A stretch of DNA of 38,054 bases from Bacteroidota bacterium (GCA_947451105.1 CANFXY010000006.1:1-38054), one strand, 5' to 3'; positions 7,912 to 26,798 are shown, numbered from the stretch's first letter. Notes: generated by a model from the letters alone, not told the origin. Program-made: numbers and translations.

Positions 7912-8797
7912 TTACAGAGAATAACTTTTTAAATGTTTGTTTTTATAATGTTTTATAATTTCCAATACCAGCAGCATGATGCTCGCACCAAAAATTGAAA
8001 TTAGGAAGTGGAATAAGCCAGGGTTTTGAAAACTAAAAAGTGTTTGTAAGTAGGAAATATTAAGCGTCAACAGCAACATTAAAATTGCTATTGCTACAAT
8101 TAATATTAAGGATTTGTTGTTTTCTTTAAGTGTAGAAAATACACTTCTGGTTTTCGAGAGGTTGCTCAAAATCAAAAATATATTTCCAACAATTAAAGCA
8201 GAAAAACTTATAGCTCTTGTCTCAAATTCTGAATGGCCTTCATTAATGGTAAATAAGAAAACGGCCAAAACAAATGCCAATAATAACAAGCCTTGTAAAA
8301 CACTTTCGGCTATTTTGTTTCGGCCAAAAAAAGTGTCATTAAGATTTCTTGGCTTTCTAATCATAATGTCTTTTTCCTCCTTCTCCGATTCAAAAGCGAT
8401 TGAACAAACAGGGTCAATAATTAACTCTAAAAACACAATATGAACGGGCAATAAAATGATTGGCAGATTTTCTTCTTTTTTGTTTCCCATCTCTTAAAAC
8501 AAGCGTTCTAGGTGAGGCTATTTTTTTTAAAGCATCGAGTGCTTTTTCAGTTTTATTGCGGTTGTAAAATGTAATAAAAATTATAATCAGAATACTTGAA
8601 AATAAAATAATGCCTTCTCTGTAGTCACCAATAATGAGGTATAAAACCCCGCATGCCAGCAAAAGCATGAACATTGGCTCTTTTATGACACTAAAAGCAA
8701 TTTCTAAAACTGATTTTTTCTCTGAATTGGGTAATTCATTGAATTCACCTTTGTCTAATTTTTGCTGAACCGACTTAGCGGACAATCCTGTTTCCAT
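7912..8797 (-). pseudogene. cation-transporting P-type ATPase remnant with large internal deletion and frameshift
   Basis: Two overlapping frames carry the two ends of one ATPase. From the ATG at 8797, about 105 residues match the N-terminal membrane segments and the start of the actuator domain of a Ca2+-type (P2) ATPase, ending at SPRTLVLRDGKQ. From about 8460 leftwards, in another frame, the protein resumes at LPIILLPVHIVFLELIIDP and runs through the C-terminal transmembrane bundle to 7912. The whole middle is missing, including the TGES and DKTGT phosphorylation motifs and the nucleotide-binding domain, several hundred residues by comparison with the family. The junction is a purine-rich stretch near 8465-8485. 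A 192-residue C-terminal piece could still be translated from an ATG at 8490, but it cannot pump ions. Confidence 0.88.
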
Positions 8798-8847: not shown

Positions 8848-11004
8848 TTAATAAAAATCAACTATACCTGTTTCGACATTGTACAAGCCACCAACAATTT
8901 TTATTTTTCCTGCTGATTCTAATTCAGCAATTATTGGGCTCTCTTTTTTGATTCTATCAATTGTTAGCAATACGTTTAACTCAGAAACCTTATTCACAAA
9001 ATCAAGATTTGAACCGTTTCGATTCAATGTAAAGCTTGATTCTTTGTCAATAGCAGGTTTTATTTTATCAAGCAAGGTTGTTAAGTTGCCCAATTGAACA
9101 TGGTTGCAGGCTCCAATTATTGCACCGCATTTTGTATGTCCAAGAACCACAATGAGTTTAACGCCTACTTCGTGAATTGCAAATTCCATGCTGCCAAGTA
9201 TGTCTTCGTTTAATATATTTCCAGCAATTCGAACGCTAAAGATATCGCCTAAACCAAGGTCAAAAATATGTTCTGTGGTTGTCCGAGAATCGATACAACT
9301 TAATACAATTGCAAATGGGTTTTGCCCAAATGAAGTTGCATTTACTTGTTGTTTTAAATATTTTTCAGCCCAATTGCCTTTGACAAATCGAGCATTTCCG
9401 TTTTTAAGAATTTCAAGTATTTCATCGGGATTCAATTTTTCTTGAGTTTCTTTATCCAGCACATCAACAAATTCAATTCGGTCCTCAAGATGATACTGCG
9501 ATTTAATCCCCAATACATTTACCTTAATGTTCTTTATGCCTGAAATTGTATTTTTAAAATCGTTGATAATGTCTAATACATCTTGATCGATATAATCTGA
9601 ATTGCTGCCATCAATAATAACTTTAGAATTATTTGGGATACTCAATAATGTGTCCTTGATGCTCGCTTTATTTAAAAAAGAAACCTGATTGGGTAATTCT
9701 ATTCGCATGGTTTCATCCAAGTGCAATGTTTCCTTTTTCATTACAAATGGATTGTTAAAGTTACTCTTTAATAAATAGAATATACTGATTGTCAATCCGA
9801 TTAGAACACCTATGAGTAAATCGGTAAACACAATGGCTAATATGGTACAGATAAAAGGGATAAATTGATTCTGCCCCTTTGAATACATGTTTTTATAGAG
9901 TTCCACTTTTGTAAGCTTATAACCTGTAACCAATAAGATGGATGCCAAGGACGCTAATGGAATTAAATTGAGAAAGGGACTTAAAGCCAATAAACTTATA
10001 AGTAAAAACAAGCCATGAATAATGCTTGATAATTTTGTTTTTCCTCCTGCATTGATATTGACAGAGCTTCTCACAATTACGGAGGTTATGGGTATCCCGC
10101 CAATAAATCCCGATAGCATATTGCCTGTTCCTTGTGCAATTAATTCTTTATTGGGAGAGGCATAGCGTTTTTCTGGGTCAATGTTTTCAATGGCTTCTAA
10201 ATTTAATAATGTTTCAAGGGATGCTACAATTGCTATGGTTAAAGCAATTAGCCATACATTGTAATTGCCAATTTCGCTAAATTTAGGAAAGACAAACATT
10301 TGTTTGATTCCATTAAACATCGGGATGTTAACAAGATGACTCTGCTCTATTTGTAAAGAAGGAATAAAAATACCGAAAATGTAATTGATTAAAATGCCAA
10401 TAAATACAACAATCAATGAAGCGGGTAAAAATTGTAATTTTTTTAGTCTAGTTTTATCCCAATAGATCAAAACAAAAAGTGAAACAATCGATACAATCAA
10501 TGCTCCCCAAGAAAAAAAGTTGAAAATCTTTAACAACTCTGAAAAAGTGTTTTCGCCATCGGCTTGGAAAAACGAAAAATCATCCTCTGGATCTTTGTCA
10601 TATCCCATTGCATGCGGTATTTGTTTTAATATTAGAATAACGCCAATTGCTGCCAATAAGCCTTTTATAACATTGCTTGGGATGTAGTTGGCGATAAATC
10701 CACCTTTAAAAATACCAAGTAATATTTGGAATAGACCTGCAATTACAACAGCCAAAAGGAAAATTTCGAAACTTCCCAATTGTGTGATAGAGCTCAATAC
10801 AATTGCTGAAAGTCCTGCTGCAGGTCCGCTAACACTGGTTTGCGATTGGCTTAAAAAACCCACAACAATACCGCCAATTATCCCGGAAATAATGCCAGAT
10901 AATAAAGGTGCGCCGCTGGCCAATGCAACGCCTAAGCACAAAGGCAAGGCAACCAAAAACACCACTAAGCCCGCCGGTAAATCACTTTTAATTTTTTTAA
11001 ACAT
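8848..11004 (-). CDS. SulP-type anion transporter fused to STAS-like and beta-carbonic anhydrase domains
   Basis: This 718-residue protein has three parts. Residues 1 to about 400 are a SulP/SLC26 membrane domain (LPAGLVVFLVALPLCLGVAL at the start, GIPITSVIVRSSVNINAGG in the middle). Residues about 430-535 are a STAS-like cytoplasmic domain. Residues about 545-718 are a beta-carbonic anhydrase with the zinc ligands C570, H623 and C626 (CIDSR, then HTKC) and the Asp572/Arg574 dyad. Such SulP-anhydrase fusions are known and are thought to carry bicarbonate and interconvert it with CO2 at the membrane. All zinc ligands are intact, so the enzyme should be active. It is the first gene of the minus-strand run and is divergent from the ECF operon. 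Confidence 0.93.
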   Translation of the reverse strand: MFKKIKSDLPAGLVVFLVALPLCLGVALASGAPLLSGIISGIIGGIVVGFLSQSQTSVSGPAAGLSAIVLSSITQLGSFEIFLLAVVIAGLFQILLGIFKGGFIANYIPSNVIKGLLAAIGVILILKQIPHAMGYDKDPEDDFSFFQADGENTFSELLKIFNFFSWGALIVSIVSLFVLIYWDKTRLKKLQFLPASLIVVFIGILINYIFGIFIPSLQIEQSHLVNIPMFNGIKQMFVFPKFSEIGNYNVWLIALTIAIVASLETLLNLEAIENIDPEKRYASPNKELIAQGTGNMLSGFIGGIPITSVIVRSSVNINAGGKTKLSSIIHGLFLLISLLALSPFLNLIPLASLASILLVTGYKLTKVELYKNMYSKGQNQFIPFICTILAIVFTDLLIGVLIGLTISIFYLLKSNFNNPFVMKKETLHLDETMRIELPNQVSFLNKASIKDTLLSIPNNSKVIIDGSNSDYIDQDVLDIINDFKNTISGIKNIKVNVLGIKSQYHLEDRIEFVDVLDKETQEKLNPDEILEILKNGNARFVKGNWAEKYLKQQVNATSFGQNPFAIVLSCIDSRTTTEHIFDLGLGDIFSVRIAGNILNEDILGSMEFAIHEVGVKLIVVLGHTKCGAIIGACNHVQLGNLTTLLDKIKPAIDKESSFTLNRNGSNLDFVNKVSELNVLLTIDRIKKESPIIAELESAGKIKIVGGLYNVETGIVDFY

Positions 11005-11158: not shown

Positions 11159-11791
11159 ATGTTTTGTCTTTTATTCATCAAATTTCAAGTTCCGTTAAAA
11201 AAATTTAATAATTGTTTTGATTTTATTTCATTTAAAATTGCACCTTTAATATTTCTGATTCTGAATCTTGAGCAATTATATCAAATGTATAAAGACATGG
11301 TTTATAACCTTGCACTGAGTTATGTTCAAAATTCTGAAGATGCTGAAGAAATTACCCAAGATGTATTTGTCGCCGTACACCAATCAATCTCTGGTTTCAA
11401 AGCCCAATCGAACATAAAAACGTGGATTTACCGCATAAGCATCAATAAGTCTTTGGATTTCATAAAAGCCAAAAAGCGTCAAAAAAGATTTGGTAACTTT
11501 ACCTCTTTGTTTTTTGACAACCGTTCAGAAATAAAATACCAAGATTCAGATTTTAAACACCCAGGTATTGTTTTGGAGGAAAAAGAGGCCATCATGCACT
11601 TGTTTAAAATCATCAATCAATTGCCAGACAATCAAAAAACAGTTTTAATACTTTCTAAAATTGAGAATAAGTCACAGAAAGAAATTTCTGAAATAATGAA
11701 TATTTCAGTCAAGGCAGTAGAATCACTGTTTCAAAGGGCCAAGAAAAATATTGAAAAAAAAATATACCCAAACAAAGGATTAACAAAATAA
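11159..11791 (+). CDS. ECF-family RNA polymerase sigma factor (start uncertain)
   Basis: Region 2 runs from about residue 36 (LNLEQLYQMYKDMVYNLALS, then EDAEEITQDVFVAVHQ and IKTWIYRISINKSLDFIKA). Region 4 lies near the C-terminus (LPDNQKTVLILSKIENKSQ, then ISVKAVESLFQRAKKNI), as in ECF sigma-70 factors. I give the ATG at 11159 because it is the only ATG that keeps all of region 2, but the 34 residues it adds are low-complexity F/I/K-rich and look like translated intergenic DNA. Translation more likely begins at CTG 11261 or ATT 11258, or at ATG 11285, which cuts region 2.1. It heads the copper-type operon and is followed after 21 bp by its probable anti-sigma factor. Confidence 0.9.
   Translation: MFCLLFIKFQVPLKKFNNCFDFISFKIAPLIFLILNLEQLYQMYKDMVYNLALSYVQNSEDAEEITQDVFVAVHQSISGFKAQSNIKTWIYRISINKSLDFIKAKKRQKRFGNFTSLFFDNRSEIKYQDSDFKHPGIVLEEKEAIMHLFKIINQLPDNQKTVLILSKIENKSQKEISEIMNISVKAVESLFQRAKKNIEKKIYPNKGLTK
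11212..11240 (+). promoter_or_regulatory. candidate promoter of the ECF sigma gene
   Basis: A TTG at 11212-11214 is followed after 18 bp by TAAAATTG at 11233-11240, one mismatch from TAnnTTTG. If used, transcription would begin about 11245, inside the long ORF, excluding the ATG at 11159. A weaker alternative -7 (TTTATTTG) lies just ahead of 11159. Confidence 0.25.
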
Positions 11792-11801
11792 CATCGTCTA
11801 A
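11773..11801 (+). promoter_or_regulatory. putative ECF-dependent promoter, copy 1
   Basis: CAAAGGATT at 11773-11781, 12 bp of spacer, then TCGTCTAA at 11794-11801, ending 11 bp before the ATG at 11813. The same two blocks with the same spacing occur at 14176-14204. Seen as CAAAGG-N16-CGTCTAA this has ECF promoter geometry, with a CGTC-type -10 and 16-bp spacer. The upstream block overlaps the last codons of the sigma gene. It would drive the anti-sigma, sensor, MbnP and MbnH genes. Confidence 0.6.
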
Positions 11802-11812
11802 TTATCTACAAA

Positions 11813-12070
11813 ATGAAACCGAACCATCCAATAGATCATTTAAGCCAAATTGAAAAAGTGGAAGCGCCTGCACATTTGTTTGAAAAAATTCAAACTAGAA
11901 TTGACAAGCAAAAAGCAGAAAGTTTTTCAATTGCGGCATCTTATGCTATTGCAGCATCAATTGTTTTATTTCTTTGCCTAAACATTAGTCTAATTGTTTT
12001 CAAAGAAAACGCGAACAATAAAATGAATTTATTTACCCAATTGAATACCAATAACGATCTATACAAATGA
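11813..12070 (+). CDS. small one-TM protein, probable anti-sigma factor (CnrY-like position and size)
   Basis: An 85-residue protein with a charged N-terminal part of about 37 residues (containing IEKVEAPAHLFEKIQTRI), one hydrophobic helix at about residues 40-63 and a short 20-residue tail that would lie in the periplasm. It lacks a zinc-binding HxxxCxxC motif. I do not recognise a named family from sequence. The position directly after an ECF sigma gene, the topology and the 4-bp overlap with a CpxP/CnrX-like sensor suggest a membrane-bound anti-sigma factor like CnrY of Cupriavidus, which is similar in size. This is inference from context. Confidence 0.7.
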   Translation: MKPNHPIDHLSQIEKVEAPAHLFEKIQTRIDKQKAESFSIAASYAIAASIVLFLCLNISLIVFKENANNKMNLFTQLNTNNDLYK

Positions 12071-12510
12071 ACAAAGTAAAATTATTAAGCGTGGCAGCAA
12101 TTATACTGCTGATAACTAATTTAATTTCATTGGCATTTATTTTAAACAATAAGCCAGGTAAGAGAGAAGGCCCGAAAGACTACATCATCAAACAATTGAA
12201 TTTTGATGAAAATCAAATAAAGGAATATCAAAAATTGATATTTGACCACCGAATGAATATTCGCAATTACGATGATAAAATATACATACTCAAAGGCGAA
12301 TTATACGGCTTTTTGAATTCACATTCTGAAACTGAAAAAGATTCGTTAATAGGTGAGATTGCGAAAGCTCAAATGGAAGTAGAAAAAATCCATTGTAAAC
12401 ACTTTAAAGATATAAAGAACTTGTGCAAACCATCTCAAATGAATGCCTATAACGACTTGTTGTTAGAAATGTCATACTTGTTCTCGCCATACAGGAAGCC
12501 CAAAAATTAA
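12067..12510 (+). CDS. membrane-anchored CpxP/CnrX-like periplasmic metal sensor
   Basis: This 147-residue protein has an N-terminal membrane anchor (about residues 5-26) followed by an all-helical periplasmic domain with the paired LxxxQ pattern of the Spy/CpxP/heavy-metal-resistance fold (FDENQIKEYQKLIFDHRM and CKPSQMNAYNDLLLEM). Possible metal ligands are H61, M63, H86, M103, H109, C110, H112, C120 and M125, a set rich in sulfur and imidazole as expected for copper or a similar soft metal. Length and layout match CnrX, which signals metal to the anti-sigma factor CnrY. It overlaps the anti-sigma gene by 4 bp and is followed one base later by the MbnP gene. Confidence 0.72.
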   Translation: MNKVKLLSVAAIILLITNLISLAFILNNKPGKREGPKDYIIKQLNFDENQIKEYQKLIFDHRMNIRNYDDKIYILKGELYGFLNSHSETEKDSLIGEIAKAQMEVEKIHCKHFKDIKNLCKPSQMNAYNDLLLEMSYLFSPYRKPKN

Positions 12511-12511
12511 A

Positions 12512-13168
12512 ATGAGCCCATCGTTTAGATACTTTTCTCTTTTATTTCTGTTTTTTATAAACAACGCTTTTGCAACACCTTTGGCAAAAGTAAAAGTAGT
12601 ACTAAATCGACCAGCTCTAACAGATTCAATAGCAATCGATGTGTTTAAATGCTATCTGTCAAACATTGTAATTTCTGATTCTAATTACAAGAATGACTTA
12701 AGTCCAAGTAATTATCATTTATTGGATTTTTCAAATTCGGATACAATCTTTCTCTTTGTAAGTCCTTTTGCAAATGCCAATTCTATTGAATTTAATTTGG
12801 GCATAGACAGCATAATCAATTCTTCAGGGGCATTGGGTGGCCAATTGGATCCGAGCAACGGTATGTACTGGACCTGGCAAAGTGGCTATATCAATTTCAA
12901 AATTGAAGGCTCATCTCCAATCTGCACGTCAAGAAACCATGAATTTCAATTTCATGCCGGAGGCTATGCCTACCCTTATAATGCATTAAAAGCATTTAAG
13001 TTTGAATTGCAACCCAACAAACCGTTTCATATAGAAATTGACCTAGCACTTTTTTTCAATATGATTTCGCTTAAAAATCTTGACCATGTGATGTCACCTG
13101 GCCCCAATGCACTTAAAATTTCCAAAGCCTTAGCATCTTGTTTTAAAATAGTCGAGGATGAAAAATAA
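12512..13168 (+). CDS. MbnP-like copper-binding protein
   Basis: A 218-residue exported protein with a signal peptide (residues 1 to about 21, cleaved near AFA-TP). Its core matches the MbnP family: GGQLDPSNGMYWTWQSGYI at about residues 109-127 with W120 and W122, then FQFHAGG with H148, and FHIEID with H173. Two cysteines, C47 and C138, could form a disulfide. In characterised MbnP a tryptophan is oxidised to kynurenine by the partner di-heme enzyme MbnH and is then needed for copper binding. The gene overlaps the MbnH-like gene by 11 bp, supporting a working pair. No methanobactin precursor or MbnB/C is present. Confidence 0.88.
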   Translation: MSPSFRYFSLLFLFFINNAFATPLAKVKVVLNRPALTDSIAIDVFKCYLSNIVISDSNYKNDLSPSNYHLLDFSNSDTIFLFVSPFANANSIEFNLGIDSIINSSGALGGQLDPSNGMYWTWQSGYINFKIEGSSPICTSRNHEFQFHAGGYAYPYNALKAFKFELQPNKPFHIEIDLALFFNMISLKNLDHVMSPGPNALKISKALASCFKIVEDEK

Positions 13169-14171
13169 ATTAATTTTATTGTCTGTTTTATTGCTTTGCA
13201 TCGCTTTTGTTTCCATCAATAAAAACGCCTTCAAATATCCTAAATATTTCCCCAAACCGGTTTATGCACTTGAAAACAATAATAGGACTGAATTTAAAAT
13301 TGAATTAGGTCGGGTTTTGTTTTATGATCCAATACTCTCCAAAGACAACTCGATCTCTTGTGCTTCTTGCCACAACCCTTATAATGCATTTGCCCATGTT
13401 GACCACAGTTTAAGCCATGGCATAAACGATAAAATTGGCAAACGCAATGCGCCTGTATTGTTTAATTTGGCTTGGCAGAAATCGTTTATGTGGGATGGAG
13501 CCATCAATCATTTGGATGTTCAAGCGCTTGCGCCAATCACACATCCCGATGAAATGGGGGAGACCATTTCAAATGTATTGCTAAAGTTGAATCGAAGTCA
13601 ATCCTACAAACAATTGTTTTACAAAGCATATGGTGACTCGCTGATTAATTCGGAAAGAACGCTAAAGTCAATTTCCCAGTTTTTGTTGAGTTTAATCAGT
13701 TCAAATTCTAGATACGACAGCATGGTGCTTGGTAAAATAAAATTTAATACGAAAGAACAAAATGGTTACCGCTTATTTCAATTGCATTGCAATACCTGCC
13801 ATAGAGAACCACTGTTTACGGATTTCACATTTCAAAGCAACAGACTGAGCATCGATACCAGTTTGAATGACTTAGGTCGATACAGTGTCAGTTTATTGCC
13901 CCGTGATTCATTTAAGTTCAAGGTTCCTACTTTGAGAAACATTGAGTTTTCTTACCCTTACATGCACGACGGACGTTTTAAAACCTTAGCCCAAGTCATG
14001 AACCATTACAATTCTATAGGCTTGATAAACGAAAATATATTAAAAGAACTTCGTAAAGTTATGAAATTAAGTAGCAACGAAAAGGTTGACCTCATTGCTT
14101 TTTTAAAAACCTTAACGGATAAAAAATTTCTTTTTGACGCCAAGCACACTTATTCTAAAAACAATAAATAA
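13158..14171 (+). CDS. MbnH-like di-heme c-type peroxidase (CcpA/MauG superfamily)
   Basis: This 337-residue protein has an N-terminal signal or anchor helix (residues 4-20) and two CxxCH haem sites, C68-A-S-C71-H72 and C211-N-T-C214-H215. It also has the bacterial peroxidase landmarks RNAPVLFNLAWQKSFMWDG and SYPYMHDGRFKTL. The superfamily uses peroxide; members next to MbnP (MbnH) oxidise a tryptophan of that partner to kynurenine. The 11-bp overlap with the MbnP gene makes that role the best guess, although an ordinary cytochrome c peroxidase cannot be excluded from sequence alone. A 43-bp gap with a promoter-like element follows. Confidence 0.88.
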   Translation: MKNKLILLSVLLLCIAFVSINKNAFKYPKYFPKPVYALENNNRTEFKIELGRVLFYDPILSKDNSISCASCHNPYNAFAHVDHSLSHGINDKIGKRNAPVLFNLAWQKSFMWDGAINHLDVQALAPITHPDEMGETISNVLLKLNRSQSYKQLFYKAYGDSLINSERTLKSISQFLLSLISSNSRYDSMVLGKIKFNTKEQNGYRLFQLHCNTCHREPLFTDFTFQSNRLSIDTSLNDLGRYSVSLLPRDSFKFKVPTLRNIEFSYPYMHDGRFKTLAQVMNHYNSIGLINENILKELRKVMKLSSNEKVDLIAFLKTLTDKKFLFDAKHTYSKNNK

Positions 14172-14175
14172 GCAG

Positions 14176-14204
14176 CAAAGGATTTTGAAATTTAAATCGT
14201 CTAA
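14176..14204 (+). promoter_or_regulatory. putative ECF-dependent promoter, copy 2
   Basis: CAAAGGATT at 14176-14184, 12 bp of spacer, then TCGTCTAA at 14197-14204, ending 10 bp before the ATG at 14215. All 17 bases and the spacing equal the copy at 11773-11801. It fills the only sizeable gap inside the operon and would drive the four T9SS genes and the thioredoxin-like gene. Confidence 0.62.
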
Positions 14205-14214
14205 ACATTAAAAC

Positions 14215-15075
14215 ATGAGAAAAATATATTTAAGTATAGCCTTTATCACAACATCAATTTGCAGCATAAACGGACAATCTGTTCCCAATTCTAGCTTTGA
14301 GACTTGGTCGCAAAATGGTCCTTTTGAAACACCAAACAATTGGAATGTCAGTCCTGCCGCATCGAAGTCAACCGATGCCCATACAGGAAGCTATGCTTTG
14401 CAACTAAAAACGGGGATTTTCACCAATCCACAAACCCAGTCGACTGATACCATTCCAGGAATGGCAGCCACCGGTCAACAGGGTATGGGGCCCGGCAATC
14501 AAGGTGTCAATGGTTTTCCTTATACTGCCAGACCAGATAGCTTGGTTTTTTGGTACAAATACCAAGCCCAAAATCTAGACTCATTTGTGGTTCGTTTAAC
14601 TTTATCAAAATGGAATGCTAATGCGAAAGTCATCATTTCAGATATTGTTTTTAAGGGTGGTACAACATCCAAATACACAAGAATAGCTCTTGCCGTTCAA
14701 TATTTTTCAAATTCAACACCCGATACTGCAACCATTCAGGCAATTAGCAGTCAAAGTCCTAGAGAAAATTTAATTTTGGGTTCCACATTAATTATAGATG
14801 ACATCAGTTTTAAGAGCAACAGCAGCTCTTTTGACAAAAGTGTTCAGAATGATGAAAAACAGATTTCATTGTTTCCAAATCCTTGCTCTCAGGTGTTATC
14901 CATAGCGAATTTTACAAGTGAAAAGCTTAAATTAATTGATGTATATGGTTCTGTTGTATTAGAGCAAAATACAATGGGATTAAATCAACTTGAACTATCA
15001 ACCGCTTCATTGGCCTCCGGAATTTACTTCTTGGTTCTAAATGATGGCGTTTACCACAAAATAATAAAAGAATAA
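14215..15075 (+). CDS. PCMD-like secreted protein with T9SS type A sorting domain
   Basis: A 286-residue protein with a signal peptide (to about residue 20). Its jelly-roll-like core starts VPNSSFETWSQNG and contains TGSYALQLKT, DSLVFWYKYQ and the ending LIIDDISF, a pattern I associate with the PCMD/carbohydrate-binding type domains of Bacteroidota. From about residue 215 there is a T9SS type A C-terminal domain (LFPNPCSQVLSI, then LASGIYFLVL). It is thus exported to the surface or medium. Its partner or ligand is unknown. A Gly/Met/Gln-rich loop (GMAATGQQGMGPGNQG) is at about residues 82-97. It abuts the multicopper oxidase gene with no gap. Confidence 0.75.
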   Translation: MRKIYLSIAFITTSICSINGQSVPNSSFETWSQNGPFETPNNWNVSPAASKSTDAHTGSYALQLKTGIFTNPQTQSTDTIPGMAATGQQGMGPGNQGVNGFPYTARPDSLVFWYKYQAQNLDSFVVRLTLSKWNANAKVIISDIVFKGGTTSKYTRIALAVQYFSNSTPDTATIQAISSQSPRENLILGSTLIIDDISFKSNSSSFDKSVQNDEKQISLFPNPCSQVLSIANFTSEKLKLIDVYGSVVLEQNTMGLNQLELSTASLASGIYFLVLNDGVYHKIIKE

Positions 15076-16806
15076 ATGAAGATAAGATCTTTTTTCACAA
15101 CAATTTGTTTGTTTGCATTTCAATATTCAAATGCACAATACAACCAATTATGGATTCCAGATACTTTAACTGGTACCAATTTTAATTTGACCATTAAAGA
15201 CACCTTTGCGCAAATTTGCAATACGGGTAACCAAACCATTACTGGGGGGATTAATGGCAAATTTTGGGGACCAACTTTGTTCTTTAAAAAAGGGGATGTG
15301 GTTCATTTAAATGTTAAGAACAACTTAAACGATTCTACAACAATACATTGGCATGGTATGCATTTGCCTGCTGTGATGGATGGTGGTCCTCATCAAGTTA
15401 TTCCACCTGGTGCGCTTTGGCAACCGTATTGGAAAGTGGTGAATAATGCATCCACCTATTGGTACCATCCACATTTGCACGAAATGACCATGGAGCATAT
15501 AACAAAAGGTATCGGTGGATTGATTATCGTAAGAGATAGTGTTGAATCTGCTTTGAAATTACCAAGAACTTATGGATTCGATGATATTCCATTGGTGCTA
15601 ACGGATAGGGATATAAATTCCTCACGTCAATTTGATTTGGTGCCTTATGGCGATAGTTGTTTGGTAAACATGACACTGAGAGCTCAATATACAGTTCCCA
15701 GCCAGGTAGTGCGTTTCAGGTTGTTAAATGCAGCCATTGAACGTTCTTTTAACATTGGATTTAGCGACAATAGAACATTTTATGTTATTGGTTCTGATGG
15801 CGGATTATTAAATGCACCTGTCCCTTTAACCCGTTATTTATTGCATGCTGGAGAAAGAATTGAGATTCTGGTAGATTTCAAAGGCCAATCATCATCAATT
15901 GATTTAAAAGCATTTAATTCAACTCTTGGGAATGCGATACCAGGTGGCGAGAATTTTCCAAATGGGCCCTTTGCGAATGCACTTGGAAAAAAAGACTTTG
16001 TGATGTTGCATCTAAATTTCAAATCAGCAAGCGGCAATGCAATAACAAGCATACCCAGTGCTTTAACCAACAATGTGCTTTTAAAAGCGGCTGATGCTCA
16101 AATTACAAGAGCCTTGACCATGACAGATAGTGCAGGTGTTCCAGGAACATTAGGCCCTAATACCTTTATCTTAAACCATAGGTTGTTTAAACTGAATTAT
16201 ATCGATTACCAAGTGCCTTTGAATAATACTGAAATTTGGCAAATCACCAATTCTACTGCATTTGGACATCCTTTTCATATACATGATGTAGAATTTAATA
16301 TTATCAGTGTCAATGGCGCCGCACCAACAGCTGCACAAGCGGGTTGGAAAGATGTTGTTTTTGTGCCTGGCGCAACTGGTGGTGGACCCGGTGGTGGAGG
16401 AACACCTTATGTTATAAAATTCATTGCAAAATTTGATGATTACGCCGATGCATTGCATCCGTTTATGTACCATTGCCATATTTCATTGCACGAAGACGAA
16501 GGCATGATGGGACAATTTGTTGTTACAGATCCCAAAAATCAAATAAACATTTCTGAAAATGAGTCTCCTTTCTTTTTGTATCCAAATCCAGCAAACAATA
16601 CACTGTATTTTAATTTTAGTAACCCAAATCAAAATATTTATTATGTAAGAATTGTTGATGCAGTTGGTAGAACAGTATTGATGTTGCCTGCGCCAGATTT
16701 GAGTAAAGGTATAGATATTTCAGAATTTAATTCGGGAATATACACTGTCATTTTAACGGATGGCCACTCGAAGAAAGTGAGCACCCAAAATTTTGTAAAG
16801 GAATAA
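15076..16806 (+). CDS. multicopper oxidase with T9SS type A sorting domain
   Basis: This 576-residue secreted oxidase has all four copper motifs: H91-W-H93-G, H131-P-H133, H398-P-F-H401-I-H403, and H466-C467-H468 with H472 and axial M477. It should therefore hold one type 1 copper and a trinuclear cluster and reduce O2 to water while oxidising a substrate such as Cu(I), phenols or Fe(II). A signal peptide covers residues 1-20. A glycine-rich loop (GATGGGPGGGGTP) precedes the last motif block, and no Met-rich CueO-type insert is seen. Residues about 490-576 are a T9SS CTD (LYPNPANNTLYF), so the enzyme is sent across the outer membrane, unlike periplasmic CueO. Confidence 0.95.
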   Translation: MKIRSFFTTICLFAFQYSNAQYNQLWIPDTLTGTNFNLTIKDTFAQICNTGNQTITGGINGKFWGPTLFFKKGDVVHLNVKNNLNDSTTIHWHGMHLPAVMDGGPHQVIPPGALWQPYWKVVNNASTYWYHPHLHEMTMEHITKGIGGLIIVRDSVESALKLPRTYGFDDIPLVLTDRDINSSRQFDLVPYGDSCLVNMTLRAQYTVPSQVVRFRLLNAAIERSFNIGFSDNRTFYVIGSDGGLLNAPVPLTRYLLHAGERIEILVDFKGQSSSIDLKAFNSTLGNAIPGGENFPNGPFANALGKKDFVMLHLNFKSASGNAITSIPSALTNNVLLKAADAQITRALTMTDSAGVPGTLGPNTFILNHRLFKLNYIDYQVPLNNTEIWQITNSTAFGHPFHIHDVEFNIISVNGAAPTAAQAGWKDVVFVPGATGGGPGGGGTPYVIKFIAKFDDYADALHPFMYHCHISLHEDEGMMGQFVVTDPKNQINISENESPFFLYPNPANNTLYFNFSNPNQNIYYVRIVDAVGRTVLMLPAPDLSKGIDISEFNSGIYTVILTDGHSKKVSTQNFVKE

Positions 16807-16807
16807 T

Positions 16808-18382
16808 ATGAAAAAAATAGTAAGTACTTTCTTTTTACTATTGACATTACCCCTTTTTTCTCAAAGGGGAGTTGTTTTGATTATAGCAGATGATTTGGGC
16901 ACCGACTATTTTGGGTTTTATCCCGACTATGTTGATACGGTTGATGTTCCAAACATTAGGGCTTTGGCTAAAAAAGGGATTAGATTTGTTAATGCAACTT
17001 CAAATCCTGTATGCTCTTCCACGCGTTCAGGAATATTAACAGGCCGTTATAGTTTTAGAACTGGAGTTGGTGGTATTGTGGGTGGCATTGGGGGATCAAA
17101 CCAACTGGATACCTCTGAATTGAGTATCCCTAAAATGCTTAATTTTTACAATCCTAAAATTAATAAGGCAAACATTGGAAAGTGGCATTTGCATCAACCA
17201 AATCCAGCAAGTAATTTATTGAATCCCCTAAAAATGGGTTACAACCACTATGAAGGTCCATTTATTGGTCAGTTGCCAAGCTTTACAAATTGGACCAAAT
17301 ACAATGACGGTGTTTCTAGCAATGTTAAAAATTATGCAACTAGCGAAAATGTAAACAATGCTGTATCTTGGTTAAAGGTACAAAATAATCAACCTTTTTT
17401 CTTGTGGCTTGCTTTTAATGCACCACACGAGCCATTGCATCTGCCACCTGCTGGGCTTCATTCATACACACAATTGTCTGGAACCACTCAAAATATAAAC
17501 AGCAATCCAAAGGCTTATTTTAAAGCAATGATACAAGCAATGGATTATGAAATAGGCCGTTTATGTGACTCCTTAAAAGCAATGAACCGATTTGATAGTA
17601 CCGATTTTATTTTTATTGGCGATAATGGTAACACGGCAAGAACAGCGCAAATAAGTGATTTAACGAAAGCAAAAGGCACCGTTTATCAATATGGTATTCA
17701 TGTGCCTTTTATTGTGTCAGGGCCATCCGTAGTAAATCCCGGAAGAATTTCAAGTGCCTTGGTAAATACCACAGATATTTTTGCAACGGTCATAGAAATG
17801 TTTGGATATTCTCAATGGAAACAGAAAATCCCAAGCAACAAACCTGTGGACAGCAAGAGTATTTTGCCAATCATTAAAAACCAATCCAATTCAATTCGTT
17901 CGTGGGCATTCTCTGAAATTTTCAAATTGACGACCGATTCAGCCGATGGCAAGTCCATGCAAACTTTAAATTATAAACTGATCAGATTTGATTATGGGAA
18001 AGAAGAGTTTTATTGCCTTAAAACAGATCCACAGGAATCATTAAATCTTTTAACTCAAAATTTAGATACAAGTCAATACAATGCCTATGTTTATTTATGC
18101 AACCAAATGACCAGTTTAATAGGTAAGGGCGCAACGTGTTCAAATTCTGGTATAGGGAAGGAAATAAACAGTTCAAGCATCATTTCAATTACAAATCCTC
18201 TCGTCTCTAAAATTCAAATTCAGGGTTTGTTAGAAAACATATATACAGAATTGTATAGCAATACTGGACAATTAATTTACCATGGAAATTCAATTGAACA
18301 AGTTGACTTTTCATACTTAAACCAAGGAATTTATTTTCTTAAAACATCAAATAACAGAATCTTTAAACTAATAAAATTATAA
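16808..18382 (+). CDS. sulfatase-family protein with variant CSSTR signature and T9SS type A domain
   Basis: A 524-residue alkaline-phosphatase-superfamily sulfatase: IADDLGTDYFGF supplies the metal-binding Asp pair, IGKWHLH and APHEPLH are conserved, and IGDNGN is the second metal site. The active-site signature reads C69-S-S-T-R73-SGILTGRY instead of the usual C-x-P-S-R. The modifiable Cys and Arg are kept, but the Pro at +2 is Ser. It has a signal peptide (to about residue 18) and a weak T9SS-type C-terminal domain from about 445 (LENIYTELYSNTGQLIY, ending IYFLKTSNNRIFKLIKL). The substrate is unknown, a sulfated glycan or aryl sulfate being possible. Only 1 and 2 bp separate it from its neighbours. 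Confidence 0.88.
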   Translation: MKKIVSTFFLLLTLPLFSQRGVVLIIADDLGTDYFGFYPDYVDTVDVPNIRALAKKGIRFVNATSNPVCSSTRSGILTGRYSFRTGVGGIVGGIGGSNQLDTSELSIPKMLNFYNPKINKANIGKWHLHQPNPASNLLNPLKMGYNHYEGPFIGQLPSFTNWTKYNDGVSSNVKNYATSENVNNAVSWLKVQNNQPFFLWLAFNAPHEPLHLPPAGLHSYTQLSGTTQNINSNPKAYFKAMIQAMDYEIGRLCDSLKAMNRFDSTDFIFIGDNGNTARTAQISDLTKAKGTVYQYGIHVPFIVSGPSVVNPGRISSALVNTTDIFATVIEMFGYSQWKQKIPSNKPVDSKSILPIIKNQSNSIRSWAFSEIFKLTTDSADGKSMQTLNYKLIRFDYGKEEFYCLKTDPQESLNLLTQNLDTSQYNAYVYLCNQMTSLIGKGATCSNSGIGKEINSSSIISITNPLVSKIQIQGLLENIYTELYSNTGQLIYHGNSIEQVDFSYLNQGIYFLKTSNNRIFKLIKL

Positions 18383-18384
18383 AA

Positions 18385-19737
18385 ATGATTAGAAATGCTA
18401 GCCTCGCAATTGCGCTTGTTTTTTCAATACTTGCAAACGCTCAAACCAATCCAATAATCACCTCTTGGTTGCAGAACACAACTGGAATTTTGGGTAGACA
18501 CTACGTGAATGGTAACTCAACACCGATTAAAGATGCAGATACTGCCAATGTCATGACGGTGTCCTATTCAGGTAATTGGGTTTACATAAGAACCAATGGC
18601 GTGCCTTCGTATATTACAGGACCGTTTTTAGATGGAAACCCTTCATTTACAACAGCACAAAAAGCCATCTTTAAATTAAGTTTAAACCCTGCAAAAAACA
18701 CAGGTACTTTAACCAACACAAACGGTGGAAATATTGGACTATTTATTAATGGTGTTGCGCTATTCGATTACCGTGATGGTGTCTCTTGGAGCAATGCAAA
18801 CAATGCGTTAAAAGGTGGTCCTTTAGGTGGCATGGGAGATAATGTTTGGAACCGCGATGCTGTTGTTGCAGAGAGAAAAGGTTTTGATTGTGCAAAAGGC
18901 CATCCAGCTATGGGAAATTACCACCACCACCAAAATCCAAGTGCATTTAATTTAGACCTTAACGTGGTTTCAACGGTTTGTAACCTATACAATGCAGATG
19001 GATTGTATGTTATAGATTCAACAAAACATTCTCCTCTTATTGGTTTTTCTTACGATGGATTTCCTATCTATGGTGCTTATGCATTTAAAAACGCTGATGG
19101 GACAGGTGGTGTTGTACGCATGAAATCTGCATATAAATACAGAAATATTACAACAAGAACCACCTATTCAAATGGCAGCAATGTTACTGCTGGTCCTGTT
19201 GTTTCGAGCACGTATCCTCTAGGTTATTTTAGAGAAGATTATGAATTTGTTGCAGGCACAAGCGATGATGTTTTGGACGTCCACAATGGCCGTTTTTGTG
19301 TAACCCCTGAATACCCTAATGGAATTTATTGCTATTTTGCAACTGTAGACGCAAATTGGAATTCTGCATATCCATATGCGGTTGGTCCAACATTTTATGG
19401 GGTGAAAAATGCCGTAAAGGTTTCGAGTATTAGCGAACCTGTCACCATTTACAAATCGAAAAATACCGGACTAGAAAGCATAATTCAAGAAATGAATATT
19501 AGCATTTATCCAAATCCTGCAAGCGATTTGTTGGCTATACAATGCAATGAGATCAACCGTGATAACATCAATATAGAGTTGTATGATTTTACTGGCAAAC
19601 TGGTTCAATCTTGTGTTTTATTACAAGGCAGTACCATTGCTTATTTTGATACCCAAACATTGTATGCTGGTCAATATGTGGTAAAAATCAATACCCCTAG
19701 CAAGGTTTATACGCGCAACGTTAGCATCCTTAAATAA
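18385..19737 (+). CDS. YHYH domain protein with T9SS type A sorting domain
   Basis: A 450-residue secreted protein (signal peptide to about residue 19). Its central segment GHPAMGNYHHHQNPSAF, with Y179-H180-H181-H182, then GFSYDGFPIYGAYAF and LDVHNGRFCVTPEYP, fits the YHYH family, whose name motif here reads YHHH. The His cluster could bind metal, but the family function is not established. From about residue 375 there is a T9SS type A CTD (SIYPNPASDLLAIQ, then YAGQYVVKI). It lies 2 bp after the sulfatase and 6 bp before the thioredoxin-like gene, so it is part of the same operon as the oxidase. Confidence 0.87.
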   Translation: MIRNASLAIALVFSILANAQTNPIITSWLQNTTGILGRHYVNGNSTPIKDADTANVMTVSYSGNWVYIRTNGVPSYITGPFLDGNPSFTTAQKAIFKLSLNPAKNTGTLTNTNGGNIGLFINGVALFDYRDGVSWSNANNALKGGPLGGMGDNVWNRDAVVAERKGFDCAKGHPAMGNYHHHQNPSAFNLDLNVVSTVCNLYNADGLYVIDSTKHSPLIGFSYDGFPIYGAYAFKNADGTGGVVRMKSAYKYRNITTRTTYSNGSNVTAGPVVSSTYPLGYFREDYEFVAGTSDDVLDVHNGRFCVTPEYPNGIYCYFATVDANWNSAYPYAVGPTFYGVKNAVKVSSISEPVTIYKSKNTGLESIIQEMNISIYPNPASDLLAIQCNEINRDNINIELYDFTGKLVQSCVLLQGSTIAYFDTQTLYAGQYVVKINTPSKVYTRNVSILK

Positions 19738-19743
19738 TACGTT

Positions 19744-20343
19744 ATGCTAAGACCTTCATTGCGCTTAATTGTCTTGATTTTCACCTTCGTTGTAGTAGGT
19801 TTTGTCAGCGATACCCTGCAAGTTGTTAACGATTTTAGCCTTAAAAACATCGATAGTAAAATGGTTTCTTTAAAAAACTATAAAGATGCCAAGGGGTTTA
19901 TCATCGTATTTACATGCAACCATTGTCCTTTTGCAAAACTTTATCCTGAACGCTTAAACCAATTAAATCTAAAATACAAAGCTTTAGGCGTTCCGTTAAT
20001 TGCAATTAGCTCAACGGACACCATCATGTATGCTGATGACACTTATCCTAAAATGGTAAAGAAAGCGAAGAAAGAAAAATTTAATTTTCCATATTTATTT
20101 GACGGCGATCAATCCGTAGCAAAGAATTTTTCCGCACAAAAAACACCTCATGCTTATGTGGTTTGGAAAGAAAATGGAAAGTGGGTAGTTAAATACGATG
20201 GGGCGATTGACGACAACGGAAACGATCCTGAAAAAGTGAGTAAACACTATGTTGCAGATGCAGTGGATTCCTTGTTGAAGAATAAAACCGTTGCTATCCG
20301 TCAAACCAAATCCATTGGTTGTCAAATTCTTTTTAGAAAATAA
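19744..20343 (+). CDS. thioredoxin-fold redox protein (AhpC/TSA-like, CNHC)
   Basis: This 199-residue protein has an N-terminal signal or anchor helix (about 6-22) and a thioredoxin/peroxiredoxin-like fold with the redox motif C58-N-H-C61-PFAKLYPERL. A C-terminal cis-Pro region reads KTPHAYVV. Proteins with CNHCPF are usually annotated as thioredoxin family or redoxin-domain proteins. It is the last gene of the copper-type operon, and could keep cysteines or copper ligands of the exported proteins reduced in the periplasm (inference). It has no T9SS domain, unlike the four genes before it. Confidence 0.85.
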   Translation: MLRPSLRLIVLIFTFVVVGFVSDTLQVVNDFSLKNIDSKMVSLKNYKDAKGFIIVFTCNHCPFAKLYPERLNQLNLKYKALGVPLIAISSTDTIMYADDTYPKMVKKAKKEKFNFPYLFDGDQSVAKNFSAQKTPHAYVVWKENGKWVVKYDGAIDDNGNDPEKVSKHYVADAVDSLLKNKTVAIRQTKSIGCQILFRK

Positions 20344-23963: not shown

Positions 23964-26798
23964 TTAGTCGTTTTCTGACAACCATAGATAAATGACATCT
24001 TGTATTCTGGTCCTGTAATTTCCGGTTATTAGTTCTTTGTTTTCTTCAACAGGACAAATACGGTTGCTTAAAAACACAAACACCAAACCATATTTTGGAT
24101 CAGCCCAAGTACAGGTGCCGGTAAAACCTGTGTGGCCAAACATTTGATGACTGCCTAGAGTACTTGCTGGACTCGCTTTTCCTGTGAAATCGGGTTTGTC
24201 AAACCCCAAACCTCTTCGAGAATCTAAATTTTGGTAGGTTGTAAATTTCTTTACCGTGCTCAATTTTAAGTATTCTTTTCCATTGTAAGTGCCACCCTGC
24301 TCCAACATTTGCATCAATGTTGCCAAGTCACCTGCGGTTGAAAAGATACCTGCGTGACCACTCACGCCACCCAACATTGCTGCTGCAGGGTCGTGGACAT
24401 AGCCACAAAGTTCTTGTTGCCTAAATAATCGGTCCAATTGTGTTGGTGCGATATTGTCGGTCTTTTGCTTTTTCCAAGGATTGTAGGTAATGTATTTCAA
24501 ACCCATTGGCTTGTAAAAATGCTCGTCAACATATTGGTCCAAACCTTTTCCTGATACTTTCTCTACAACCAATTGCATCAATAACATGCTTAAGTCACTG
24601 TAACGGTATACTTTTGATTCTAGAGGCGAATCGAATATGCGCTTATATATGGTGTCTTTATTGGCTTTCAACATGAATAGTTTGTCTGCTACTTTAATGC
24701 AAAATGCACTGTCTTCTTTGGCGCAGTATACACTGTCGATGTAAGGCAAGGTTTCTTTGTAAAAAGGAATCCAAGCGGTTAATCCCGCACGGTGTTGGAG
24801 TATTTCTGAAATAACTAAGTTTTCTTTATTGGTTCCCTTGGCTTGAGGCAAATAATGGCCTAAAGTTTTCTGTAAATCAATTTTGCCTTGTTCATAGAGT
24901 TTCATTACAGCAAGGGTAGTAGCCGCAATTTTTGTAACAGAGGCAATGTCATACATGGTGCTGTCATTAACTTTTTTCAACTTGTCGTAATTCAAGTATC
25001 CATAAGAACGGTTGAAAACCGCTTTTCCATCTTTCAATACCAATACCCTGCATCCTGGTGCAGCTTTCTTTTGCATCAACTGCTGAACAATGCCATCAAT
25101 TTCATTTAGTTTATTGGTGTTAATGTTGCTGTTATTGGACTCACTGTTGGTGTAAGCTCTAAGTTTTATTGGCAATTTACCCTTTTGAGGGATTTTACCA
25201 GTTATTAAATTAATGGCAGCTTGATGGTAATATTTTAAGTCTTCATAGGCCGCAACAACGCTTGCATTTTCGGGTAAATATTGTAAAACATAGGGATTGC
25301 AAAATCCCACTACTATTAGTTTCTTTTTACTTGCCAAAAGTTTTATTAAAGCAAAATCATTGTCTGTATAACCGGCCTTTTCTTGTTTCCAAAATTTAGG
25401 CTGGTGCAAACTTAACACAACGGTGGTGTAAGGACCTAACTTGTTGAGCAATCCACCTTGTTTCTCCGCATTGGCATCCTTGTCCATTGAAATAAAATGA
25501 TTGTATCCGTTGGCGCTCAATTCCGTTTTCCATGTAGACTCCAAAAGGTCGCCTACCGTGACGAAAACTGTTTTGTCATTGTCTAACTGAGCAATTGTTT
25601 TTTGAGGATCCCTAATTATTTCAACGGTTGAATTTGCTACGTTTTGAAGCAAGACCTCGTTATTATTGCTGTTCAAGTCCTGCAACAAATGAGCTGTTTC
25701 AATTGGTTTGTAGTGGTCCAATCCGGCAACTTTTTTCCATTTTAAAATTCTTGTGACGCGCTTGTCTAATTCACTTTCACTCACGATTCCTTTTGTAATG
25801 GCATCTTTTATCAATTCAAATGCTTTTGGTACATTTTCACTAAACATTAAGATGTCATTCCCGGCCAAAAATGCTTCAAGTTCTAAAAATCCTGGTTCAT
25901 AATATTTTGAAACACCCTTCATGTTCAAGGCATCTGTAATCACTAAGCCATCAAATTTCATTTTCTGACGAAGTACCGTATCGATGATATATTTTGACAA
26001 TGATGCAGGTCTGTTGGGTCTAGAATCCAATTGCGGAAAGTAAATGTGAGCAACCATGATCGATGGGACCCCTTGTCCTATCAAATATTTAAATGGATAA
26101 AACTCTGAGCTGTCCAATTGCTGGTACGATTTGTCAACCTCAGGCATGTCAAGATGAGAGTCTGTATGAACATCTCCATGTCCAGGGAAATGCTTAGCAC
26201 ATGACAATACATCTTCACTCAGCATTCCCTTGCTAAATGCATCTGCGGTAAAAGAAATTCTTTTCTTGTTGTCTCCAAAAGCCCTGAATCCAATTATCGG
26301 ATTCTTAGGATTGACATTAATGTCTACATCGGGGGCAAAATTCATGTGTATGCCAAGGCGCTTCAAGTCGCGCGCTATGGCTGCACCAATTTCATAGGTT
26401 AAACTGTCTTTTTGTAACGCACCTAGTGTGATTGCATATGGATATTTCTGCGTGTGTTGTAAGCGCATAGCTAAGCCCCATTCAGCATCAATTCCAATCA
26501 TCATAGGTACTTTTGATATGGATTGTAAATAATTGCTGAGATAGGCTTGTTTTAATGGGTCATTTTGAAAAAACACCAAGCCGCCAACATGGTAATTTAA
26601 TACTTGATTTTCCAAATCTAGTGTATGCTGCGCATCCTTATTGCTGTATGCTGCAACCATAAACAACTGTCCAATTTTCTCATCTAAGCTCATTTGCTTG
26701 AGTTGGTACTCATACCAAAATTCAGGCACTTGGGCTTTCAATTTGCAATTGAACAACAAACAAATTGCAAGTGTAAATATCTTAAAGATTTTATTCAA
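23964..26798 (-). CDS. GH3 beta-N-acetylglucosaminidase-type enzyme fused to class C-like beta-lactamase/serine hydrolase
   Basis: This 944-residue exported protein starts at a TTG (26798), giving a clean signal peptide MNKIFKIFTLAICLLF. Residues about 28-370 are a GH3 catalytic domain: KHFPGHGDVHTDSHLD at 202-217 holds the NagZ-like D213-x-H215 acid/base pair, and D289 (TDALNMKG) is the nucleophile. A GH3 C-terminal domain follows to about 550. Residues about 570-944 are a serine beta-lactamase/penicillin-binding domain with S620-V-T-K623, Y733-S-D735 and a later HTG (GHTGFTG). The fusion is known in Bacteroidota and suggests turnover of peptidoglycan or related glycopeptides in the periplasm. 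Actual beta-lactam hydrolysis is uncertain. Confidence 0.92.
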   Translation of the reverse strand: MNKIFKIFTLAICLLFNCKLKAQVPEFWYEYQLKQMSLDEKIGQLFMVAAYSNKDAQHTLDLENQVLNYHVGGLVFFQNDPLKQAYLSNYLQSISKVPMMIGIDAEWGLAMRLQHTQKYPYAITLGALQKDSLTYEIGAAIARDLKRLGIHMNFAPDVDINVNPKNPIIGFRAFGDNKKRISFTADAFSKGMLSEDVLSCAKHFPGHGDVHTDSHLDMPEVDKSYQQLDSSEFYPFKYLIGQGVPSIMVAHIYFPQLDSRPNRPASLSKYIIDTVLRQKMKFDGLVITDALNMKGVSKYYEPGFLELEAFLAGNDILMFSENVPKAFELIKDAITKGIVSESELDKRVTRILKWKKVAGLDHYKPIETAHLLQDLNSNNNEVLLQNVANSTVEIIRDPQKTIAQLDNDKTVFVTVGDLLESTWKTELSANGYNHFISMDKDANAEKQGGLLNKLGPYTTVVLSLHQPKFWKQEKAGYTDNDFALIKLLASKKKLIVVGFCNPYVLQYLPENASVVAAYEDLKYYHQAAINLITGKIPQKGKLPIKLRAYTNSESNNSNINTNKLNEIDGIVQQLMQKKAAPGCRVLVLKDGKAVFNRSYGYLNYDKLKKVNDSTMYDIASVTKIAATTLAVMKLYEQGKIDLQKTLGHYLPQAKGTNKENLVISEILQHRAGLTAWIPFYKETLPYIDSVYCAKEDSAFCIKVADKLFMLKANKDTIYKRIFDSPLESKVYRYSDLSMLLMQLVVEKVSGKGLDQYVDEHFYKPMGLKYITYNPWKKQKTDNIAPTQLDRLFRQQELCGYVHDPAAAMLGGVSGHAGIFSTAGDLATLMQMLEQGGTYNGKEYLKLSTVKKFTTYQNLDSRRGLGFDKPDFTGKASPASTLGSHQMFGHTGFTGTCTWADPKYGLVFVFLSNRICPVEENKELITGNYRTRIQDVIYLWLSEND

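Follow-up and report, generated by a model that had tools for sequence, protein, structure and literature searches.

In a 38,054 nucleotide stretch of DNA from a Bacteroidota bacterium (GCA_947451105.1 CANFXY010000006.1:1-38054, hereafter the window) an operon at positions 11159-20343 begins with genes for an extracytoplasmic function (ECF) sigma factor, an 85-aa putative anti-sigma factor and a 147-aa membrane-anchored sensor with a predicted CnrX fold, followed directly by the protein pair MbnP and MbnH and, further downstream, by a YHYH protein. Comparison with related genomes shows that these six genes are the conserved unit, while a multicopper oxidase (MCO) with its thioredoxin-like companion and a sulfatase are optional. 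Each kind of component is already known, and it looks to be the combination and its conservation that are undescribed; we found neither in the literature searched, which left out key subscription papers (on ECF reclassification and on the MbnP kynurenine).

All ten open reading frames (ORFs) of the operon are present on the + strand and are tightly packed, with a gap of 21 bp between sigma and anti-sigma genes, an overlap of 4 bp between anti-sigma and sensor, a gap of 1 bp between sensor and MbnP, an overlap of 11 bp between MbnP and MbnH and then gaps of 43, 0, 1, 2 and 6 bp. Searching 97 related genomes with the 147-aa protein and labelling the neighbourhoods by gene similarity returned sensor homologues in 30, and in 24 of the 30 sensor loci (window included) the order sigma, short ORF, sensor, MbnP, MbnH is found and the cluster also contains YHYH; some of these 24 have MCO, sulfatase and thioredoxin genes as well. 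The six exceptions are varied: one lies at a contig end in a genome that starts another contig with MbnP-YHYH (L037), one has MCO and thioredoxin as its sole operon-type cargo (L055), one has a different YHYH-domain protein downstream (L039) and three are without related cargo (L046, L047, L060). Independently of the sensor, an MbnH alignment run against 84,980 species genomes gave 80 loci, and the conserved trio and core order recurred in 20 of these 80 named-genome loci, among them Flavobacterium paronense CECT 8460 (L088), where the order is sigma, anti-sigma, sensor, MbnP, MbnH, MCO, thioredoxin, YHYH. An earlier note made from the window alone had described ten co-directional genes that overlap or are separated by 0-43 bp, headed by a regulatory trio, and recomputing ORFs and spacing bears this out; it had also named absence of linkage between the trio and MbnP/MbnH or oxidase genes elsewhere as what would refute it, and such linkage was found repeatedly. 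The ten families in the given order, whose co-occurrence it proposed to look for, are not what is conserved, the 286-aa accessory protein having a counterpart in one relative only and the MCO, thioredoxin and sulfatase genes coming and going.

The linkage is tighter for some members of the unit than for others. Full-length YHYH proteins often adjoin MbnP without a sensor in the 97 related genomes, and among closely related MbnH loci with sufficient flanks (n=34) 28 have YHYH and 16 have the trio, compared with 3 and 1 respectively among the more distant loci (n=28). Mapped onto a tree of 100 MbnH sequences, the presence of YHYH can be explained by 6 changes and that of the trio takes about 19 gains or losses, from which we conclude that MbnP-MbnH-YHYH is a stable core and that the trio, though often present, is a regulator that can be exchanged; the MCO/thioredoxin pair and the sulfatase are likewise gained and lost around this core. 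Trio-bearing MbnH loci come from Flavobacteriia, Saprospiria, Chitinophagia and Kapaibacteria, and the core without a trio is also seen in Chlorobiota and Ignavibacteriota records. The genome of the window itself has two more MbnP-MbnH pairs, on contigs 63 and 83 (L063, L064), which are divergent and lack both trio and YHYH.

The 147-aa sensor and the 85-aa protein fall below every Pfam and NCBIfam family cut-off. For the sensor we built an AlphaFold2 model from the window protein and 20 homologues. The model (mean predicted local distance difference test score, pLDDT, 92.8) consists of an N-terminal membrane helix (residues 2-27) and four periplasmic helices. When it was compared with 350,542 PDB chains using Foldseek, ranks 1-14 were taken entirely by CnrX and NccX (E 0.019-0.12, probability 1.00), with TM scores of 0.72-0.76 against CnrX chains, and CpxP, ZraP and others ranked below. 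VIA-align superposed the sensor on CnrX over 103 residues at 3.1 Å with a Z of 10.7, a value attainable between helical bundles in general, so that it is the ranking and the coverage that favour CnrX. A hidden Markov model (HMM) alignment with the CnrX of pMOL28 agrees with the fold match and places the conserved His112 of the sensor on CnrX His119. The likeness to CnrX thus holds at the level of the predicted fold. Residue counts show that His61, His112, Cys120 and Gln124 are near-invariant in MbnP-linked sensors, and we hypothesise that His61, His112 and Cys120 may form a metal site.

The sensor belongs to a much broader family. A profile search detected homologues in 120 of 296 genomes of the phylum, and in 20 loci fetched for gene context MbnP lay directly downstream of 4 of the 5 sensors scoring above 100 bits and of 0 of the 15 with lower scores. 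One sensor subfamily is therefore devoted to MbnP/MbnH. The lower-scoring loci repeat the order of the window, with a sigma gene first, then a short ORF or an anti-sigma gene and then the sensor; what follows are Lcl_C proteins with a type IX secretion system (T9SS) tail, another type of YHYH protein, a MauG-like protein, an oxidoreductase or nothing evident. Since they keep this order despite other cargo, it is the norm for a phylum-wide trio. Second trio copies in L036 and L041 have purple acid phosphatase-like proteins downstream. The cargo of the trios of this wider kind (L036:2400-3810 on the - strand, L041:13152-14565, L180, L185, L187 and L193) is mostly T9SS-exported and does not consist of metal efflux pumps.

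The sigma factor of the window is an ordinary ECF protein, with 24% identity to CnrH and higher scores against AlgU, SigW and RpoE structures. The start codons of its homologues, mostly TTG, fall at the equivalent of window position 11255 or 11261 (L034, L035, L036, L040, L041, L037, L048-L051), and the window has CTG at 11255-11263 where its relatives have their TTG start. Given this conserved start position, the call at 11159 probably adds 32-34 codons to the gene, whose true start is probably the CTG at 11255 or 11261. The 85-aa protein consists of a short cytoplasmic N-terminus, one hydrophobic stretch resembling a transmembrane segment and a short periplasmic tail ending in LY, and its 24 homologues share the motif LxxIxKVxxPxxLFxKIxxRI and a near-C-terminal NxLY. 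A search of the PDB found no chain similar to it. Position, size and hydrophobic stretch suggest an anti-sigma role. The use of a short anti-sigma factor outside class I would agree with published figures, according to which just 6% of the ECF sigma factors of Bacteroidetes have one of class I nearby (PMC7406223). Upstream of the sigma genes, neither alignment nor a scan for TAnnTTTG gave clear enrichment for a shared promoter, and a scan for sigma-70 promoters and terminators stayed at chance level.

MbnP matches PF20243 with 121.6 bits against a cut-off of 27 and is under the cut-off of the TIGR04052 equivalog (24.5 bits vs 140); its profile had no match among PDB sequences at E 0.1. W120, W122 and H148 are invariant in 25 sequences, and every MbnP homologue listed has the WxW motif; the MbnH gene adjoins. 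MbnH scores 179 bits for CCP_MauG and 201.8 bits for the TIGR04039 equivalog, below the cut-off of 362.85. The heme motifs C68/C71/H72 and C211/C214/H215 are invariant in the homologue alignment, as is Y284, which aligns with a Tyr of 6e1c and with a Met of the di-heme peroxidases 1iqc and 3o5c. A Tyr at the axial place of the second heme, where peroxidases have Met, is a feature of MbnH and MauG.

The most constant partner of MbnP/MbnH is the YHYH protein (PF14240, 193.9 bits). We make no claim as to its fold because model confidence is low (pLDDT 73.7, with the YHYH motif itself below 50) and the PDB matches are to the T9SS tail or to generic beta-sandwiches, and the literature searched held nothing relevant on YHYH and copper. 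Directly beside cnrYXH, the annotation of pMOL28 has a "YHYH domain-containing protein" of 41 aa (L145:12905-13027), whose likeness to the PF14240 proteins may be one of name only. In the MCO the copper motifs HWHG, HPHLH, HPFHIH and HCHISLHEDEGM are all visible and its best solved relatives are CueO proteins; it scores 346.7 bits against the CueO model, below the cut-off of 525, and no alignment to CueO is obtained for its stretch 280-368. CueO-like MCOs are a tolerance enzyme type. On MCO, T9SS and sigma factor in combination the literature searched held nothing relevant. MCO and a CNHC thioredoxin-like protein co-occur in 12 of 12 MCO loci (window, L034, L035, L036, L040, L041, L045, L052, L055, L084, L088, L108) and look like a sub-module, being always paired even where MbnP/MbnH is absent (L055). 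The window sulfatase has CSSTR instead of CxPxR, which makes classical formylglycine formation doubtful; CSSTR or CSATR is also present in L036, L040, L041 and L073, and related sulfatases in L080, L102 and L117 retain CSPTR. T9SS type A sorting domains score above cut-off in the 286-aa protein, the MCO and the YHYH protein and just under it in the sulfatase (19.6 of 27 and 21.7 of 23).

Taken together, anatomy and fold suggest an envelope-stress or metal-responsive ECF system working like CnrYXH and responding to excess metal, a reading to which we give about an even chance. The membrane-anchored periplasmic sensor would control the one-TM (single transmembrane) anti-sigma factor, and a signal in the periplasm, the likeliest being a surplus of copper or of a comparable thiophilic metal, would alter the contact between the two; the anti-sigma factor would then release the sigma factor, which would transcribe its own operon. 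MbnH would be expected to convert a Trp residue in MbnP into kynurenine by oxidation, enabling MbnP to bind copper, and T9SS-exported surface proteins would be made as well, namely YHYH and, in the window, the CueO-like MCO and its helpers. It is the cargo that points to copper as the signal. Several observations weigh against this reading. Helical bundles match one another readily, and the E-values given by Foldseek are modest. The metal ligands of CnrX, His42, His46, Glu63, His119 and Met123, are mostly not kept, His42, His46, Glu63 and Met123 aligning in the HMM alignment to K37, I41, I58 and I116. His61, His112 and Cys120 are likewise found in many of the phylum-level sensors that have other cargo, and a signature common to sensors with unrelated cargo need not mean copper. 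The 85-aa protein compared with CnrY gives an hhalign probability of 0.1%, an absence that is not decisive as both proteins are very short. Finally CorA and MopE, the best-studied comparable proteins, are copper-repressed, which argues for acquisition and not detoxification (PMC3912023; PMC3621798).

The scarcity of CnrX ligands would also be expected if the sensor were metal-free and, like Spy and CpxP, which have the same fold, detected protein misfolding or damage to the membrane, with MbnP/MbnH/YHYH as one cargo set of a general Bacteroidota envelope-stress trio. In keeping with this, the wider trio family is found ahead of varied secreted proteins, among them purple acid phosphatase-like, Lcl_C and YHYH proteins, and some of its members have no evident cargo. 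However, both structure comparisons rank CnrX and NccX ahead of Spy and CpxP, the sensor shares with CnrX its anchoring in the membrane, and the near-invariance of His61, His112 and Cys120 in the MbnP-linked subfamily goes with specific and not general cargo, so that we regard a metal-free sensor as unlikely, if a serious contender.

We are similarly doubtful that the same circuit serves copper acquisition, as in CorA/CorB or MopE/SACCP, being switched on when copper is scarce while the metal-bound sensor keeps the sigma factor off. To our knowledge the CnrX-type sensors described so far all activate on metal excess, the exported MCO is of the CueO-like tolerance type and no TonB-dependent receptor adjoins in the loci inspected. 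Large ORFs upstream of trio-less loci, considered as TonB receptor candidates and hence a possible mark of copper uptake, proved to be CotH, GH16 (glycoside hydrolase family 16), lectin, peptidase and SprB/CHU_C proteins, with one SCO1/SenC nearby. What speaks for acquisition, besides copper repression, is that CorA and MopE lie at the cell surface, are partnered by MauG-like di-heme proteins and have a proposed acquisition role (PMC3912023), and that the extra MbnP/MbnH pairs of Methylosinus lie near FecIR-like MbnI/MbnR regulators (PMC3621798). Our confidence is spread over the excess-metal, acquisition and metal-free readings because precedent is divided, CnrX-type systems acting on excess and those of CorA/MopE type on scarcity. 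That trio and MbnP/MbnH are neighbours by chance, or that the trio regulates only itself, is highly improbable: the many changes on the MbnH tree do mark the trio as a partner that is not obligatory, but adjacency with gaps of a few bases recurs across many families and 24 of 30 loci by chance is not credible, the linkage refuting coincidence.

Pfam and NCBIfam assign families to 8 of the 10 operon proteins, the Pfam matches being Sigma70_r2/r4, MbnP, CCP_MauG, Por_Secre_tail together with multicopper oxidase, sulfatase, YHYH and AhpC-TSA.

Table 1 Genes of the operon in the window with the evidence for each assignment
Feature	Position	Strand	Basis and remarks
ECF sigma factor	11159..11791	+	Pfam Sigma70_r2/r4; start codon doubtful
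85-aa putative anti-sigma factor	11813..12070	+	Position, size, hydrophobic stretch and conserved motif suggest the function
147-aa membrane-anchored periplasmic sensor, predicted CnrX/CpxP fold	12067..12510	+	Predicted structure, Foldseek, residue counts
MbnP-family protein, signal peptide, WxW (WTW)	12512..13168	+	PF20243, 121.6 bits
MbnH/MauG-type di-heme enzyme, two CxxCH, Tyr284	13158..14171	+	CCP_MauG, 179 bits
286-aa accessory protein, T9SS type A tail	14215..15075	+	Pfam; one relative only (L034)
CueO-like MCO, T9SS tail	15076..16806	+	Pfam/NCBIfam, copper motifs
Sulfatase-family protein, marginal T9SS tail, CSSTR	16808..18382	+	Pfam/NCBIfam, motif inspection
YHYH protein, T9SS tail	18385..19737	+	PF14240, 193.9 bits
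AhpC/TSA thioredoxin-like protein, CNHC motif	19744..20343	+	Pfam; accompanies MCO

Divergent from the operon lies a SulP transporter fused to a carbonic anhydrase (8848-11004, - strand), and an ORF of the same size occupies this place in three relatives of the same genus (L034, L035, L042). Elsewhere in the window the C-terminal domain of a cation P-type ATPase is encoded on its own (7912-8490, - strand, 192 aa), perhaps as a gene fragment, next to a VIT-family protein, and a glycoside hydrolase family 3 domain is fused to a beta-lactamase-like serine hydrolase domain (23964-26798, - strand).

MbnP/MbnH pairs are widespread and have been termed "mysterious partners", and the one precedent for such a pair near an ECF/anti-sigma pair is the FecIR-like MbnI/MbnR of Methylosinus (PMC3621798). 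The loci described here give these pairs a constant third partner in YHYH and a defined, testable regulator, and the trio offers a concrete answer to how some Bacteroidetes ECF sigma factors without a class I anti-sigma factor nearby may be controlled. It is possible, and we advance it tentatively, that they represent a distinct Bacteroidota-centred form of copper homeostasis: a sensor of CnrX fold, with a His/His/Cys site unlike that of CnrX, would control the making of a kynurenine-dependent copper protein (MbnP/MbnH) along with the secreted YHYH, which would be a third, unrecognised component of their chemistry. As the named isolate F. paronense CECT 8460 carries the locus, these proposals are directly testable.

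Among known systems the trio most resembles CnrYXH/NccYXH of Cupriavidus metallidurans, a nickel/cobalt sensor system, in that an ECF sigma factor, a short one-TM anti-sigma candidate and a membrane-anchored sensor of predicted CnrX fold head a presumed target operon. The gene order on pMOL28 is cnrY-cnrX-cnrH-cnrC-cnrB-cnrA as against sigma-anti-sigma-sensor-MbnP-MbnH here, and the cargo there is an RND (resistance-nodulation-division) nickel/cobalt efflux pump instead of MbnP/MbnH/YHYH/MCO. The earlier note had read the three genes as CnrHYX in composition with an order of its own; an ECF trio with a CnrX-fold sensor stands, but membership of CnrHYX does not, with 4 of 5 CnrX metal ligands absent and no similarity of the anti-sigma candidate to CnrY detected, and the H-Y-X order is nothing special but the ordinary one of a broad Bacteroidota trio family. 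With the MbnP/MbnH of methanobactin operons (TIGR04052/TIGR04039, structure 6e1c) the operon shares a WxW MbnP-family protein adjoining a MauG-like di-heme enzyme; it differs in having no recognised methanobactin genes, in scoring below both TIGRFAM cut-offs and in its CnrX-like regulator where Methylosinus has the FecIR-like MbnI/MbnR (PMC3621798). CorA/CorB and MopE/SACCP of methanotrophs likewise pair a surface or envelope copper-binding protein containing kynurenine with a MauG-like cytochrome (PMC3912023), whereas MbnP is not markedly similar to them in sequence (PMC3621798), the regulator differs and YHYH is not reported for CorA/MopE. The MCO of the window shares its Cu-oxidase domains and copper motifs with CueO and is set apart from it by its T9SS tail.

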